Of a stretch of 64,000 nt of DNA, positions 12,504-51,578 are shown one piece after another (the first letter of the stretch is position 1; every line of letters begins with the position of its first letter). The position numbers and the translations under genes are program-made. This DNA comes from Marmoricola sp. OAE513 (lineage in GTDB: Bacteria; Actinomycetota; Actinomycetes; Propionibacteriales; Nocardioidaceae). The DNA lies in NCBI RefSeq assembly GCF_040546585.1, contig NZ_JBEPOC010000001.1:310001-374000 (forward strand), read 5' to 3'. Below the pieces are notes generated by a model that ran no database searches, was not told where the DNA came from, and saw only the letters and a list, made by a program, of their open reading frames with translations.

Positions 12504-15500
12504 CCCAGGCAGCCCGGGCCGAGCAGCTGCTTGAGGTCGGCGAACAGGGCCGGGGTGGGAGTCACCCTGAGCTGGTCGGGCATCCGGAACACCTTCGTCG
12601 AAGTACGGCTCATCAGCTTCAAACGTACCTCCGACATCCCCGGGTGGGTCGAGAGCACCTCCTTGAGCTGCTCGACGACCGGCGGGGTGCACCGCGTCGA
12701 GGGGATCGAGATGACCACCGGTCCGCTCGGACCGTCGCTCAGGTCGGGGAGGGTGACCTCCTGACCGTGCAGCTCGGGCTGGTCCTTCTGGCGGGACAGC
12801 CGACCCTTGACCGTCACGATGGCGTCCTCGGTCAGCAGCGTCGCCGCGAGCTGGTAGGCGCTGGGGAACAGCAGCACGTCGATGGCACCCTCGAGGTCCT
12901 CCAGCGTCACCATTGCCCAGGTGTCACCCCGCTTGGTCATCTTGCGCTGCACGCTGGTGATGAGGCCGGAGACGGTGACGGTGGAGTTGTCGGCGCGCTC
13001 CTCGTCGAGCAGCAGCTGTCCGATCGTGCAGTCGCCGGCCGCAGCCAGGACGTGCTCGACACCCAGCAGGGGGTGGTCGCTCACGTAGAGGCCGAGCATC
13101 TCGCGCTCGTGCCCCAGCAGCGTGGTCTTGTCCCACTCCTCCATGTCCGGCACCGTCACCGAGGCGCCGAAACCGGCGTCGTCGCCGTCGAGGCCCTCGA
13201 GCCCGGCGAACAGGGAGTCCTGCCCCATCGCCTCGTTCTTCTTGAGGTCGGCGTACTGGTCGACCGCGACCTCGTGCACCGCGACCAGCGCCCGGCGCTT
13301 GTGCTTCATGTCGTCGAACGCGCCCGCCTTGGCGAGCGACTCGATCACCCGCTTGTTGCAGACCACCGCGGGGACCTTGTCGAGGAAGTCGTTGAAGTCG
13401 GCGTACCGGCCCTTCTCCTCACGCCCGGACACGATGCCGTCGACGACGTTGTGGCCGACGTTGCGCACGGCGGTGAGGCCGAAGCGGATGTCGTTGCCGA
13501 CCGCGGTGAAGTCGTGGGCGGAGGCGTTCACGTCCGGTGGGAGCACCTGGATCTTCATCCGGCGGCACTCGTTGAGGTAGATCGCCATCTTGTCCTTGGT
13601 GTCCTTCACGGACGTCAGGAGCGCGGCCATGTACTCGGTCGGGTAGTTCGCCTTGAGGTAGGCGGTCCAGTAGGTGATGACGCCGTACGCCGCCGAGTGC
13701 GACTTGTTGAAGGCGTAGTCCGCGAACGGGACGAGAACCTCCCAGAGCTTCTTGATCGCCTCGCGCGGGAAACCGCGCTCGAGCATCCCGGCCTCGAAGC
13801 CGTCGTACTCCTTGGCAAGCTTCTCCGCGTCCTTCTTGCCCATCGCGCGCCGCATGTTGTCGGCCGCACCCAGCGAGAACCCGGCGAGCTGCTGGGCGAT
13901 CGCCATCACCTGCTCCTGGTACACGATCAGGCCGTAGGTCTCGCCCAGCACCGACTCGAGGGCATCGGCGAGAGCGGGGTGGATCGGCTCGATCGGTTGG
14001 CGACCGTTCTTGCGGTGTGCGTACTTGTTGTGCGAGTCGGCACCCATCGGGCCGGGGCGGTAGAGCGCGGAGACGGCCGTGATGTCGGCGAACTGGTCGG
14101 GCTGCATCGAGCGCAGCAGGGCACGCATGCCGCCACCGTCGAGCTGGAAGACGCCGAGCGTGTCGCCGCGGCCCATCAGCTCGTAGGTCGCCCGGTCGTC
14201 GAACGGCAGGTCCTCGAGCACGACCTTCTCGCCGCGGTTCGCCTCGATGTTGGCGAGCGCGTCCTCCAGCGTGCGCAGGTTGGAGAGCCCGAGGAAGTCC
14301 ATCTTGACCAGGCCGAGCGACTCGCACATCGGGTAGTCGAACTGCGTGATGACGGCGCCGTCCTGGGGGCGCGCCATGATCGGGACGATGTCGATCAGCG
14401 GCTCGCTGGACATGATGACGCCGGCGGCGTGGACGCCCCAGTTGCGGATCTGGCCCTCGAGGCCGAGCGCGGTGTTGTAGATGGTGCGGACGTCGTGGTC
14501 CTGGTCGTGCAGGGTGCGGAACTCGCCGCCCTCGTTGTAGCGCTTGTGCTCCGGGTTGAAGATGTCCTTGAGCGCGACGCCCTTGCCCATCACGTCGGCG
14601 GGCAGTGCCTTGGTGATCTTGTCGCCGATCGCGAACCCGTGGTCGAGGACCCGGGCCGCGTCCTTGATGGCGGCCTTGGACTTGAGCCGGCCGAAGGTCG
14701 CGATCTGGGCGACCCGCTCGGAGCCGTACTTGTCACTGACGTACTGGATGACCTCGCCGCGGCGGACGTCGTCGAAGTCGATGTCGAAGTCGGGCATCGA
14801 CGGCCGCTCGGGGTTGAGGAACCGCTCGAAGAACAGCCCGTGCTCCAGCGGGCACAGGTCGGTGATCCGCAGCGCGTACGCCGCGATCGAACCGGCACCG
14901 GAACCACGGCCGGGGCCGACCCGGATGCCGTTGTCCTTCGCCCAGCCGATGAAGTCGGCGACCACGAGGTAGTACCCGCAGTAGCCCTTCTGCGAGATGA
15001 TCGCGAGCTCCATCTCGACCCGGTCGCGGACCTCCTGGGTCAACCGCTCGCCGGGGTAGCGCGCCTCGATGCCGCGCCAGACCTCCTTGCGGAACCACGA
15101 GTCCTCGGTCTCCCCCGCCGGCACGTCCGCCCGGGCCATGTAGCCGCCCGTGGACTCGGTGAACTCGACCTGGCAGCGCTCCGCGATGGCGAGGGTGTTG
15201 TCGCACGCCTCGGGCATGCCGAACCCGTCGGCCCACAGCGCGCGCATCTCGGCCGCGGACTTGATGTAGTAGCCGCCGCCGTCGAACTTGAGGCGGTTGG
15301 CGTCGGAGAGCCGCTTGCCCGAGGCGACGCAGATCAGGGCGTCGTGGGCGTCGGCGTCCTCGGGGTTGTTGTAGTGCGAATCGTTGGTGGCGATCGGGGG
15401 GATGCCGAGCTGCTTGCCGAGCTTGAGCAGGTCGTCGCGGACCCTCCTCTCGATCGAGATGCCGTGGTCCATGAGCTCGAGGAACACGTTGTCCCGACCG

Positions 15501-48382: not shown

Positions 48383-49582
48383 TCACGGGCGGCGGCGCCC
48401 GAGCAGGGTCGCAGGGCGGATCGTTCCGCTCCCGAAGCGCTGTCCCGCCCGGTCCACGGCGCGGTCTGCCTCGGACCAGCCCCGTTCGCGCTCGCCCAGC
48501 GTCATCTGCCGGTCGGCGCTGCTCCGCGCCCGCAGCCCCTCGACCCGGACCCCCACCAGGCGGATCCCGCGCTGGTTGCGCAGGGCCGCGAACAGCGCCG
48601 CCGCAGCGGCGTACACCTCGGCGGTGACGTCGGTCGGGTCAGGCAGCGTCCGGGACCGCGTGATGGTCTCGAAGTCGCTGTACCGGACCCGGATCGCCAC
48701 GGTCCTCCCGACCAGGTCGGCGCGCCGCATCCGGGACGTGACCTTGGTGGCGAGCCGGAGCAGCTCGGCGTTGATCGCGTCGGGGTCGGCGGTGTCGCGG
48801 GAGAACGTCTCCTCGGCCCCCATGCTGCGCTCGGGGTCGTCGTCGGAGCGGCGCGGGGTCAGCGTGCTGCGGTCGGTGCCCCAGGCGAGCTCGTGCAGGT
48901 GCACCCCCGAGGCCTTGCCGACCATCAGCTTCAGGGTGGGCAGCTCGATGGCGGCGATGTCACCCACGGTGAGCAGGCCGAGCTTGTGCAGCTTGGCACG
49001 GGTCTTGGGCCCGACTCCGAAGAGCTCGCCGACGTCGAGCGGGTGCAGGTACTCGATGACCCGGTCGGGCGGGACCATCAGCACTCCGTCGGGCTTGGCC
49101 CGTCGACTGGCGAGCTTGGCCACCGAGACCGTGCCGGCCAGCCCGACCGAGCAGGTGATCCGCTGCTCGTCGTAGATCGTGGCGCGCAACCGCTCCGCGA
49201 TCTGCAGCGGCGTGCCCATCCGTCGTCCGGCGCCGGAGACGTCGAGGAACGCCTCGTCCAGCGAGTACGCCTCGACCTGGGGCGTGACCTGCCGGAAGGT
49301 CTCCATCACCGAACGCGACACGGCCTCGAACTCGCTGAACTCCGGGGACAGCCGGACCGCCTGCGGGCAGAGCCGTTGCGCCTCGCGCCCGGACATCCCG
49401 GAGCGGACCCCGAAGTCGCGGGCCGGGTAGTTGGCGGCGAGCACCACACCGCGGTGTCCCCCTCCGATCAGGACAGGGACGTGGTGGAGGTCGGGTCGGT
49501 CGCGCAGCATCACCGAGGCGTAGAACGCGTCCATGTCGACGTGGAGGATGTGGCACTCCTCCGACCCGTCCTGCGGGTTCAC
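48383..49582 (-). CDS. dinB: DNA polymerase IV (Y-family translesion polymerase)
   Basis: 399 residues. Catalytic residues: D16 in HVDMDAFYASV and D109-E110 in YSLDEAFLDV. The little finger follows a helix-hairpin-helix segment (GVGPKTRAKLHKLGLLTVGDIA). It copies past lesions. A C-terminal clamp-binding QxxLF-like motif is not clear; RQMTLGER is the nearest candidate. It is the last of four minus-strand genes downstream of a LexA box, 123 bases after the methyltransferase gene, so co-regulation is likely but not proven. Confidence 0.95.
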   Translation of the reverse strand: MNPQDGSEECHILHVDMDAFYASVMLRDRPDLHHVPVLIGGGHRGVVLAANYPARDFGVRSGMSGREAQRLCPQAVRLSPEFSEFEAVSRSVMETFRQVTPQVEAYSLDEAFLDVSGAGRRMGTPLQIAERLRATIYDEQRITCSVGLAGTVSVAKLASRRAKPDGVLMVPPDRVIEYLHPLDVGELFGVGPKTRAKLHKLGLLTVGDIAAIELPTLKLMVGKASGVHLHELAWGTDRSTLTPRRSDDDPERSMGAEETFSRDTADPDAINAELLRLATKVTSRMRRADLVGRTVAIRVRYSDFETITRSRTLPDPTDVTAEVYAAAAALFAALRNQRGIRLVGVRVEGLRARSSADRQMTLGERERGWSEADRAVDRAGQRFGSGTIRPATLLGRRRP

Positions 49583-49705
49583 GCGCTGCGCCTGGTTGCG
49601 CTGTCGTCAGCCGACGTCCGCTTTGCTGCGCTCCGCCTTGCCAGCCACCACCCCTGAACCTGCGAGCTCTCAGGAGTCGACTCAGGAGGCGGCGCAGGCG
49701 GCGAC

Positions 49706-50425
49706 TCAGGCGGTGGCGAGGAGGTGGATCTGACCGGCCAGGGCGAAGAACTCGGTACGACCGGCCACCGCGCGCTCGAGCTCGACCAACCCGGCGACGG
49801 CGCCCGGCTCCAGGTCCAGCAGCGTCGAGGGGACGAGGTCCGCGAAGACGCGGATGCCTTGCACGTCGGTGACGGTGAAGCCGGCGTCGACGAGAAGGCC
49901 CTCGGCCTCGTCCGCGGTGAACCGACCCTCGGGCGACGTCGAGTCGTCGAGGGCTGCGCGAGCGGCGTCGAACTGACCAGCCATCGCCCGGGCGAGCACG
50001 GCCGCGTGCCGCTGGTTGACGAGGAGGCTGAGCGCTCCGCCAGGACGCAGCGCGGCGTGGATCGTGGCGAGCGCCTCGGCCGGGTCGGCGACCAGCCCGA
50101 GCACGTCGTGGCAGAGCACCAGGTCAGCGCTACCGGCCTCGACCAGCTCGCCGAGCGAGGCGAGGTCACCCTGTTCGGCGATGACCCGGTCGGCGACGCC
50201 ACGCTCGGCGGCGCGACGACCCAGGGCCGCGAGCGCGTCGGGGCTGGGATCGATGACCGTGACCTCGTGGCCGAGCTCGGCCACCCGGACCGCGAACCCG
50301 CCCGTGCCACCGCCGATGTCGACCACGGTCTGGTCGGCAGCCTGGTCGAGCCGGGCACGGCAGGTGTCCCAGAGGACCGCCGTCCGCACGGAGGCTCGGC
50401 GTTCCAGAGGGCGCTCAGGGTCCAT
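49706..50425 (-). CDS. Class I SAM-dependent methyltransferase
   Basis: 239 residues. The SAM-binding motif VVDIGGGTGG is at 34-43 and the acidic residue after strand 2 in VTVIDPSPDAL. The substrate is unknown; the protein resembles SmtA/UbiE-like enzymes. A TAGTGT -10 seven bases before the ATG suggests an independent leaderless transcript, and a hairpin at 50441-50479 separates it from the HEPN gene. It may therefore be both read through from the SOS promoter and transcribed alone. Confidence 0.85.
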   Translation of the reverse strand: MDPERPLERRASVRTAVLWDTCRARLDQAADQTVVDIGGGTGGFAVRVAELGHEVTVIDPSPDALAALGRRAAERGVADRVIAEQGDLASLGELVEAGSADLVLCHDVLGLVADPAEALATIHAALRPGGALSLLVNQRHAAVLARAMAGQFDAARAALDDSTSPEGRFTADEAEGLLVDAGFTVTDVQGIRVFADLVPSTLLDLEPGAVAGLVELERAVAGRTEFFALAGQIHLLATA

Positions 50426-50440
50426 GCCTCAAACACTAGG

Positions 50441-50479
50441 GCACCTCGACCAACGTCGAGTCCTGACGTTGCCAGGTGC
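50441..50479 (-). terminator. Intercistronic hairpin between HEPN and methyltransferase genes
   Basis: Two stacked helices: GCACCT (50441-50446) with AGGTGC (50474-50479), and CAACGTC (50451-50457) with GACGTTG (50465-50471). There is no U-tract, so it may be an attenuator or RNA-processing site rather than a full terminator. Confidence 0.4.
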
Positions 50480-50568
50480 GGCGCAGGGCACGGCGGAGGG
50501 CGCAGGGCTCCTTCGTGCGCAGCGAGCTCACGCGACGACCACGCGGCCCGGTGCCGTGCATGGCGACG

Positions 50569-51000
50569 TCAGGCCACGCGAATGGACTGGTGCTCGACCA
50601 GCCCCAAGGACGTCTCGACGAGCGCGAGGAAGCGGTCGGCGTCACGGACGAGGTCGTCGGCCTCGCGCTCGGTCACGGCACGGCGCGAACCAGCCTCGGC
50701 GGCCGACCGCTTCTGGGCGCCCGAGGAGAAGAACGCGGCCCACTCGCTGAACTCCGGCGCGACCTCGGCGAGCAGCACCCAGGCGTTCTTCTGGCGTCGG
50801 CGTGCGACCGGCGTCGGCTGGGTGCGGGCGGCCAGCAGCGCCGCAGTCGCCCGCAGTGCCGACACGTGCGCCAGCGCGTACCGCTGCGGCACGTCGTCGG
50901 AGGTGATGGCCTCGCGCAAGGACTCCGCCGAGCGCTCGAGGTAGGAGTGCGTCGCGGCCGGGAGCTGGACGTTCATCGCAGGTCGGGACTGGTAGGACAT
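50569..51000 (-). CDS. HEPN domain protein (SAV_6107-like)
   Basis: 143 residues, all-helical. The HEPN ribonuclease signature R-x4-H is present as R40-YALA-H45 in PQRYALAHVSALRATAALLA. HEPN proteins are frequently RNases in toxin-antitoxin, CRISPR and stress systems, and this actinobacterial subfamily is uncharacterised. It starts 6 bases after the DUF6504 gene, so the two form a tight unit under the LexA box. No separate antitoxin-like nucleotidyltransferase (MNT) is nearby. Confidence 0.75.
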   Translation of the reverse strand: MSYQSRPAMNVQLPAATHSYLERSAESLREAITSDDVPQRYALAHVSALRATAALLAARTQPTPVARRRQKNAWVLLAEVAPEFSEWAAFFSSGAQKRSAAEAGSRRAVTEREADDLVRDADRFLALVETSLGLVEHQSIRVA

Positions 51001-51006
51001 CGGGTC

Positions 51007-51396
51007 TCAGTCCAGCGAGCCGGCCAGGCGCCAGACGCCCTCGGCTCCGTCGAAGGTGAGGTCGAAGACGCCGAAACCCGGGTCGTCCTCGGTGGCGACG
51101 GCGCGACCGCGGGCCGCGGTCACGCGCCAGACGAGGCGCTCGGTCATCAGGGCGGACCGGCCGGGAGCGTCCTCGGGTCGCCGGAGCCACCAGGCGCCGG
51201 CTTCCACCCAGTGCGACAAGATCTCGCGCACCTGCCAGAGCCGGCCGCGCCACAGGAACTGCTGCGGGCCGTCCTCGGGCAGGGGGTCGAGCCGCAGGTC
51301 AGGCCGGAGGTCGGTCAGGACGGAGCCCGGGCCGTCCGCCCCGTAGCCGGGGACAGGACCCTTCCGAACCTCCACCAGGTCTTGGTATGTCTGCAC
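51007..51396 (-). CDS. DUF6504 family protein, first gene after the LexA box
   Basis: 129 residues with the core QFLWRGRLWQVREILSHWVEAGAWW, which I recognise as DUF6504. The SH3-like look of this Trp-rich segment suggests nucleic-acid or protein binding, but no activity is known. I chose GTG 51396 because AAGGAG lies seven bases upstream; in-frame starts at 51429 and 51414 have poor spacing. The gene follows a perfect LexA operator and a 12-bp leader hairpin. Confidence 0.7.
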   Translation of the reverse strand: MQTYQDLVEVRKGPVPGYGADGPGSVLTDLRPDLRLDPLPEDGPQQFLWRGRLWQVREILSHWVEAGAWWLRRPEDAPGRSALMTERLVWRVTAARGRAVATEDDPGFGVFDLTFDGAEGVWRLAGSLD

Positions 51397-51442
51397 CGTC
51401 TTGCTCCTTCCCATCTCCTCGGCCGTCACCGGTTGTGTCGGT

Positions 51443-51485
51443 GCTCCGGTGGAGAGTGGGGGTCGAAGTCACCCTCCACCGGAGC
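51443..51485 (-). promoter_or_regulatory. Leader hairpin of the LexA-controlled cluster
   Basis: A perfect 12-bp inverted repeat, GCTCCGGTGGAG (51443-51454) and CTCCACCGGAGC (51474-51485), with a 19-base loop. It begins five bases from the LexA box and lies in the 5' UTR of DUF6504. A wider 9-bp repeat (51435-51443 and 51529-51537) encloses it. Confidence 0.6.
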
Positions 51486-51490
51486 GTCAT

Positions 51491-51506
51491 TCGAACATCT
51501 GTTCGA
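51491..51506. promoter_or_regulatory. LexA (SOS) box
   Basis: TCGAACATCTGTTCGA fits the actinobacterial/Bacillus-type SOS consensus CGAACN4GTTCG with flanking T/A symmetry. It is 95 bases before the DUF6504 start and 73 before the divergent YbaK-domain gene, so LexA could control either side. Confidence 0.88.
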
Positions 51507-51578
51507 ATGAATCCAAGGTACACCTCCCCACCGACACCACGTCAAGCCCCCGCGCGGCACCTGGGATACGTTCGCCGC

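Follow-up and report, generated by a model that had tools for sequence, protein, structure and literature searches.

A DUF6504-HEPN-DinB operon of Marmoricola as a probable slimmed SOS mutasome with a LexA/PafBC-type promoter and a structured leader

The DNA analysed here (the window) is a stretch of 64,000 nucleotides from Marmoricola sp. OAE513 (contig NZ_JBEPOC010000001.1, positions 310,001 to 374,000). Four genes on its minus strand lie 3′ of a perfect LexA box and encode, in this order, a DUF6504 protein, a HEPN_SAV_6107 protein, an S-adenosylmethionine (SAM)-dependent methyltransferase and the translesion polymerase DinB (Table 1). Profile matches confirm this arrangement, which had been reported in a preliminary description of the same DNA. 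We consider it likely that the locus is a DNA-damage operon acting as a slimmed SOS mutasome, with a LexA/PafBC promoter and a leader RNA. It represents a variant within a mutasome class already described, to which it adds the composite promoter, a conserved HEPN partner and the leader RNA.

Table 1. Features of the DUF6504-HEPN locus, in positions of the window
Feature	Position	Strand	Basis
-35-like hexamer TTGACG	51540..51545	-	TTGAC bases each commonest (77-90%) when 123 promoters are aligned by their -10 element
PafBC-type -26 element TGTCGGTG	51529..51536	-	fits TGTCRgtg-N8-TAnnnT
-10 element TACCTT	51515..51520	-	TAnnnT, 8 bases past TGTCGGTG
Perfect LexA box TCGAACAGATGTTCGA	51491..51506		14 bp past the start of the -10 element; full 12-position palindrome
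Leader hairpin, 16-bp stem, 11-nt loop ACUUCGACCCC	51443..51485	-	fold z score, covariation and model match
DUF6504 protein, 129 aa, putative stand-alone ImuB-C-type subunit	51007..51396	-	PF20114, E 6.5e-15, scored on a longer 140-aa frame
HEPN_SAV_6107 protein, 143 aa	50569..51000	-	PF18726, E 4.1e-34
Gap, site of a DnaE-like polymerase (DnaE2B candidate) in relatives	50426..50568		gene order of relatives
SAM-dependent class I methyltransferase, 239 aa, CmoM nearest but below cut-off	49706..50425	-	profile search
DinB / Y-family polymerase	48383..49582	-	IMS, E 6.7e-48; DMDAFYASV and SLDEAF motifs

Gene order and its conservation

The DUF6504 and HEPN genes are separated by 6 bp, HEPN and methyltransferase by 143 bp, and methyltransferase and DinB by 123 bp. 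The family assignment of the first gene stands; its start had been placed at 51429, and a GTG at 51396, with AAGGAG 7 bases upstream, is probably the true one. The two DinB motifs in Table 1 are what we take to be intact catalytic motifs, and the C-terminal tail of the protein resembles the RecA-NT motif. Compared with five close relatives, all four genes have a nonsynonymous divergence (dN) far below the synonymous one (dS), indicating that the slimmed operon is maintained; against one of them (L127), dN and dS are 0.08 and 0.66 for DUF6504 and 0.08 and 1.04 for HEPN.

Across 147 genomes of the order, HEPN was found in 96 and DUF6504 in 84; 70 genomes have both, 26 have HEPN without DUF6504, 14 have DUF6504 without HEPN and 37 lack the two. 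The pairing seen in the window is general among the 70 genomes that have both: in every one the two genes are neighbours on one strand with DUF6504 first (Fisher p = 2e-7), with their matched regions no more than 750 bp apart, DUF6504 being matched incompletely in some. We then compared 131 loci, comprising 50 chosen from the genomes of the order, 80 named loci retrieved by HEPN similarity and the window itself; they have 126 distinct upstream regions, and some are cut by contig ends. The commonest set is DUF6504, HEPN, DnaE and DinB (54 loci), followed by HEPN with DinB (25), HEPN alone (18), DUF6504, HEPN and DinB (15, including the window), DUF6504, HEPN and DnaE (9), DUF6504 with HEPN (5), DUF6504, DnaE and DinB (4) and DUF6504 with DinB (1). 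DinB and DnaE-like genes thus lie beside the DUF6504-HEPN pair in relatives. The DnaE-like protein is present in the cluster of 67 loci, which supports the proposed link to translesion synthesis; it usually follows HEPN and never occurs without DUF6504, and DUF6504, DnaE and DinB stand together in 58.

The full-length DnaE-like proteins of the cluster are approximately 1,230–1,320 aa long, and a domain search of one identified PHP, pol3_alpha, finger, HHH and OB domains. Four of them share 57–75% identity with each other, 28–32% with the DnaE2 and about 29% with the DnaE1 of the window genome. In two loci (L081 and L171) the polymerase gene is divergently oriented, the DnaE-methyltransferase-DinB half being inverted relative to DUF6504-HEPN. 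No DnaE gene is present in the window cluster, and the 143-bp gap holds no convincing remnant (best E 0.13). Elsewhere, at 1.23 Mb and behind a LexA box, the genome does carry a canonical imuB-dnaE2 pair. It encodes two DnaE proteins in all, the number also seen in 46 of 52 family genomes; the same number was obtained for 9 of 10 family genomes with DnaE in the fetched locus and for 12 of 12 without it. Such a uniform count is expected if one extra DnaE swaps for another.

The loci also bear on a looser relationship, which we regard as possible though not probable, in which HEPN would be an SOS gene in its own right, its promoter merely shared by DUF6504, DnaE2B, the methyltransferase and DinB. 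Against it, every one of the 70 genomes with both genes preserves their order and strand, and the gaps are very short, such as the 6 bp in the window; 43 of the 131 loci, on the other hand, have HEPN without DUF6504 or DnaE, five have DUF6504 without HEPN, and in 39 of those 43 HEPN has its own LexA box scoring at least 10/12. Because the box is retained there, we favor HEPN as a damage-response protein that would assist the mutasome without being required by it.

LexA operator and PafBC-type promoter

The full LexA palindrome occurs five times in the 3.89-Mb genome, compared with no copy of a reversed-pattern control, confirming the box reported at this site. The looser pattern GAACN4GTTC with at most one mismatch shows no excess over chance (24 observed, 19.6 expected). 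The best box scores 12/12 in 114 of the 131 loci, 11 in 10, 10 in three and 8 in four, so that an operator of at least 10/12 lies 5′ of the cluster in 127; among 655 shuffled upstream regions, 1.7% reach 10/12 and none 12/12. Where DUF6504 is missing, the box sits before HEPN. The LexA box and the DUF6504-HEPN pair are thus conserved in relatives far above chance, which supports the predicted LexA control of the cluster. In the phylum-level set, CCGAACN4GATCGA replaces the box in seven of nine loci of one family (f6), in agreement with the Streptomyces venezuelae LexA consensus in the accessible text of PMC9380542.

Three further LexA-like sites were noted in the same genome. At 823462–823477 (L121), a perfect box and the beginning of an HNH endonuclease gene (PF01844) overlap, two LexA-like boxes 3 bp apart lie at 154891–154925 (L122) between TetR-like and NUDIX-like genes, and an 11/12 box at 13386–13401 (L120) lies at the start of a uvrA-like gene; the names at the last two sites were read from translations.

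LexA control had been proposed for the cluster. This proposal is supported; a PafBC-type promoter had been overlooked. Read 5′ of the LexA box, the order is TTGACG-TGG-TGTCGGTG-GGGAGGTG-TACCTT. The last three elements fit TGTCRgtg-N8-TAnnnT, the consensus of mycobacterial LexA-independent damage promoters as quoted in the accessible text of PMC5656591. A relaxed form of this motif has a single match in the whole window, at this promoter, and 37 matches in the genome, compared with one for a reversed control. In the 127 promoters whose box scores 10/12 or better, the strict motif is found in 48 and the relaxed motif in 89; base-shuffled upstream regions give 0.0 and 0.035 per set, respectively. 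The spacing is also constrained: TAnnnT is found 8–26 bp before the box in 123 of the 127, and in 105 it starts 14 or 15 bp before it. Outside the order, the same arrangement is seen in L254 and L255, where TGTCGGTG-N8-TATATT precedes a 10/12 box.

Genes behind the other genomic sites are in keeping with a damage regulon. Eight of 30 inspected PafBC-type sites precede uvrC, uvrB, polA, mfd, radA, nth, dnaX and recA, and an HTH_PafC protein (E 2.7e-37) is encoded at 3800064. Five further sites of the 30 (L211, L218, L220, L222 and L224) precede HNH-endonuclease-like genes. All these gene names, HNH included, were read from translations without a family search. Based on these motifs, the cluster promoter appears to be a PafBC-type damage promoter, in which LexA would be half of the control. 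Mycobacterial recA offers a parallel: its PafBC-dependent promoter P1 has the same TGTCRgtg-N8-TAnnnT arrangement. In recA, however, PafBC and LexA act on separate promoters, P1 and P2 (accessible text of PMC5656591), whereas in the window the two elements form one unit. A literature search on PafBC with LexA, dnaE2 or SOS box returned no title or abstract on such a promoter.

A second relative of the -26 element was noted: CACCGACA, at 51436–51443 on the minus strand, follows the leader hairpin described below and is the reverse complement of TGTCGGTG, with no -10 element at the right distance. CACCGA is found at the corresponding place in the leaders of L084, L127, L128, L130 and L133.

The leader hairpin

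Between the LexA box and DUF6504, the leader RNA of the window folds more stably than expected (z = -2.73; 1 of 200 shuffles as good). In relatives, the motif YTCGACCC lies at most 75 nt from the box in 78 of 127 leaders and 18–25 nt past it in 72, and the 11-nt loop, ACCUCGACCCC, is near-fixed across leaders. To analyze covariation we used an alignment of 59 of 73 unique leader segments, chosen by hand; the segments omitted, a choice that favors the structure, were nine near-duplicates and the leaders L101, L107, L119, L166 and L171, in which the stem is shifted or different. Compensatory changes are present at all 14 pairs. The fraction of paired cells is 93.2%, compared with 72.7% after shuffling, double changes number 161 compared with 44.7, and the covariation score is 0.609 compared with 0.213; none of 500 shuffles equals any of these measures. 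When the pairing partners are slid, only 41–55% of cells are paired.

A covariance model built from these leaders (R1) matches the window at 51438–51489 with 53.8 bits, the window being among the 59 training leaders, and matches nowhere else in the same genome. In the family, 33 of 81 genomes have a match, 32 of them a single one. All 30 model-found loci that were inspected hold DUF6504 and/or HEPN, 23 with a perfect LexA box; 21 contain no exact training sequence, and in 14 of those the box is perfect. Weaker matches were obtained in another family (L092, L097, L098 and L110). An Rfam search of the leader gave no family at the gathering score. In the literature searched on DUF6504, HEPN/SOS and PafBC/LexA no such leader RNA was seen, none of these searches being aimed at the leader itself.

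Downstream of the loop, no more than 60 nt away, 34 of 74 leaders contain a sequence of 8 nt or more complementary to it, compared with a mean of 0.7 and a maximum of 4 after shuffling and with 4 in a same-strand control, suggesting that the leaders of many relatives can form a pseudoknot.

Could the conserved element work as DNA, as an operator or a cruciform? Together, the loop motif TCGACCCC and GGGGTCGA further downstream make up an inverted repeat of conserved sequence that is at times repeated, as such an element might. The stem, however, varies with compensation, contains many G-U pairs and keeps its cells paired to the extent given above, as an RNA would, and the element sits downstream of the predicted start site. 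We therefore consider a DNA element unlikely and a transcribed hairpin the better description; its most likely role is that of a brake or timer acting post-transcriptionally. A bolder proposal is that the leader belongs to a damage-response riboregulator class not yet described: a hairpin, in many relatives with the capacity for a pseudoknot, gating translation of mutagenic polymerases and read by HEPN as an RNA ligand, which would form an RNA checkpoint after the dual LexA/PafBC switch; we regard this as improbable. HEPN as the exclusive reader of the leader is disfavored, as the hairpin also occurs without a HEPN hit in L107 (identified by the loop motif) and in L110, L307 and L309 (by the covariance model).

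HEPN, DUF6504 and the mutasome

R40 and H45, the proposed ribonuclease motif, are present in the window HEPN, and in 130 non-identical sequences from the order, the majority of them from Nocardioidaceae, R40 is kept in 127 and H45 in 126. The R-x4-6-H motif is not kept across this HEPN family, however. A phylum-level search was positive in 35 of 346 genomes; H45 is lost in 7 of the 20 strong loci, being Tyr in five (family f7) and Gln in two (family f9), and Tyr also prevails among those weak loci that could be read. All seven loci without H45 have a LexA-like box scoring 10–12 of 12. A survey of HEPN proteins (PMC3710099) gives, in its accessible part, ‘No’ for SAV_6107 in what appears to be the motif column. 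A comparison with PADLOC gave no match at E 0.01, and no antitoxin-like neighbor was recognised. HEPN as an RNA-cutting effector, as the preliminary description had it, is thus doubtful. An active RNase, produced in the SOS response so that RNA is cut and translation slowed during mutagenic repair, would fit the order-level conservation of R40 and H45 and the LexA box that HEPN keeps when DUF6504 is absent; given the losses of H45 behind LexA-like boxes, the survey entry and the lack of a PADLOC match or antitoxin-like neighbor, we think this has a low probability. In addition to R40 and H45, the residues W74, P82, E83, E86, W87, R112, D116 and R119 are near-invariant in the order, suggesting that HEPN binds its target rather than, or besides, cleaving it.

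We also considered a defense or toxin-antitoxin role for HEPN and rejected it. Apart from the PADLOC result, a plasmid collection held a single record, an 11.85-Mb Nonomuraea replicon, and the chromosomal neighbors (YbaK, methyltransferase and DUF3040) are kept. PF18726 has a match in Corynebacterium glutamicum, and cg2381, which lies beside mraZ, is the SAV_6107 HEPN candidate of that species. As with the window HEPN behind its LexA box, cg2381 is under damage control: it belongs to the LexA regulon and is induced by ciprofloxacin (accessible text of PMC5055667).

No paper naming DUF6504 was found in the literature searched, and among the matches listed in searches on HEPN with LexA, SOS, actinobacteria or translesion, no title or abstract concerned this pairing. 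Neither protein has a homologue of known structure (best E 0.35 for HEPN and 0.55 for DUF6504). Two published systems nevertheless offer a frame. The accessible text of PMC12926913 describes a group, with Tessaracoccus lapidicaptus as an example, that combines DnaE2B, an active Y-family polymerase (PolY), a stand-alone ImuB-C and RecA. The present cluster resembles it in being actinobacterial, in having an active Y-family polymerase with a RecA-NT-like tail and a small stand-alone subunit, and in the DnaE that shares the cluster in relatives; it differs in that the window has no DnaE gene, and the main text of the paper names neither HEPN nor DUF6504. The second system, in the accessible text of PMC6511836, is the damage-induced lexA-imuB-C-polY operon of Geobacter, in which a stand-alone ImuB-C is found with an active PolY alone and no DnaE2; neither HEPN nor a PafBC-type promoter is named in the section on that operon, and the window operon has no lexA. 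Because these sets have been described, we read DUF6504 as a probable stand-alone ImuB-C-type subunit and the gap polymerase of relatives as a candidate DnaE2B. On this reading DUF6504, described before as uncharacterised, is a mutasome part rather than an orphan. The mycobacterial ImuA'-ImuB-DnaE2 cassette is likewise a LexA-controlled translesion system; the window operon has no ImuA, full ImuB or dnaE2, and the imuB-dnaE2 pair lies separately at 1.23 Mb.

These observations suggest the following model. The operon would be transcribed from a sigma-A promoter that is probably PafBC-dependent, with PafBC sensing single-stranded DNA; such DNA activates PafBC, and PafB touches the -26 motif, in the accessible text of PMC11804915. 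LexA, positioned over the start site, would block transcription. Two alarms would thus have to agree, RecA-driven loss of LexA lifting the block and PafBC activating the promoter. The transcript would begin with the conserved hairpin, most likely acting as the brake or timer proposed above. Ancestrally, a DnaE2B-type polymerase would have followed HEPN, to be lost in the window lineage, which has the canonical imuB-dnaE2 pair elsewhere in its place. For this reason DUF6504 probably now serves DinB together with RecA, like the Geobacter operon. Such a system would give two families with no assigned function, DUF6504 and the SAV_6107 HEPN, a testable role in induced mutagenesis, and provide one compact promoter at which the LexA and PafBC pathways appear to converge outside mycobacteria; the leader RNA, with its covariation and its place at the head of an SOS operon, would bring a post-transcriptional layer to error-prone repair.

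Several results weigh against this model. Of the 131 loci, 80 are HEPN-derived and 50 hand-picked, and since HEPN occurs alone in 26 and DUF6504 alone in 14 of 147 genomes, the two are not obligate partners. The 143-bp and 123-bp gaps weaken the case for co-transcription of DinB in the window. Not even the relaxed PafBC motif is present in 38 of 127 promoters, and none is found at the LexA box (1234050) about 700 bp upstream of the genome’s own imuB-dnaE2. The loop motif is missing from 49 of 127 leaders, 48 of 81 family genomes have no R1 match (counted irrespective of gene presence), and the loop-to-downstream pairing is absent in the window, where the complement is only 5 nt. DnaE2B genomes have neither ImuA nor ImuB in the accessible text of PMC12926913, whereas the window genome has a canonical imuB-dnaE2. 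Finally, a profile comparison of DUF6504 with seven ImuB C-termini, six of them actinobacterial, was not significant (probability 0.8%, E 0.073), nor did PF20114 hit any of six ImuB proteins at E 10.

The last two results would be expected if DUF6504 were unrelated to ImuB-C and had a role of its own with DnaE2B. We judge this unlikely, as DnaE never occurs without DUF6504 in the 131 loci. PF20114 also has a match, given without a position, in Caulobacter, which has ImuB. Furthermore, a stand-alone ImuB-C together with DnaE2B and an active PolY is what the accessible text of PMC12926913 describes in its actinobacterial group. We thus retain the ImuB-C-type assignment as probable.

Two minor observations concern the neighboring genes. 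For the methyltransferase (49706–50425), the closest profile is CmoM, which acts on the tRNA wobble uridine, at 103.6 bits compared with a cut-off of 366. In the loci of relatives, an Endonuclease I and DUF6359 protein, whose domains were taken from L083, accounts for 17 profile hits, mostly right after HEPN (L073, L074, L083, L087 and others).

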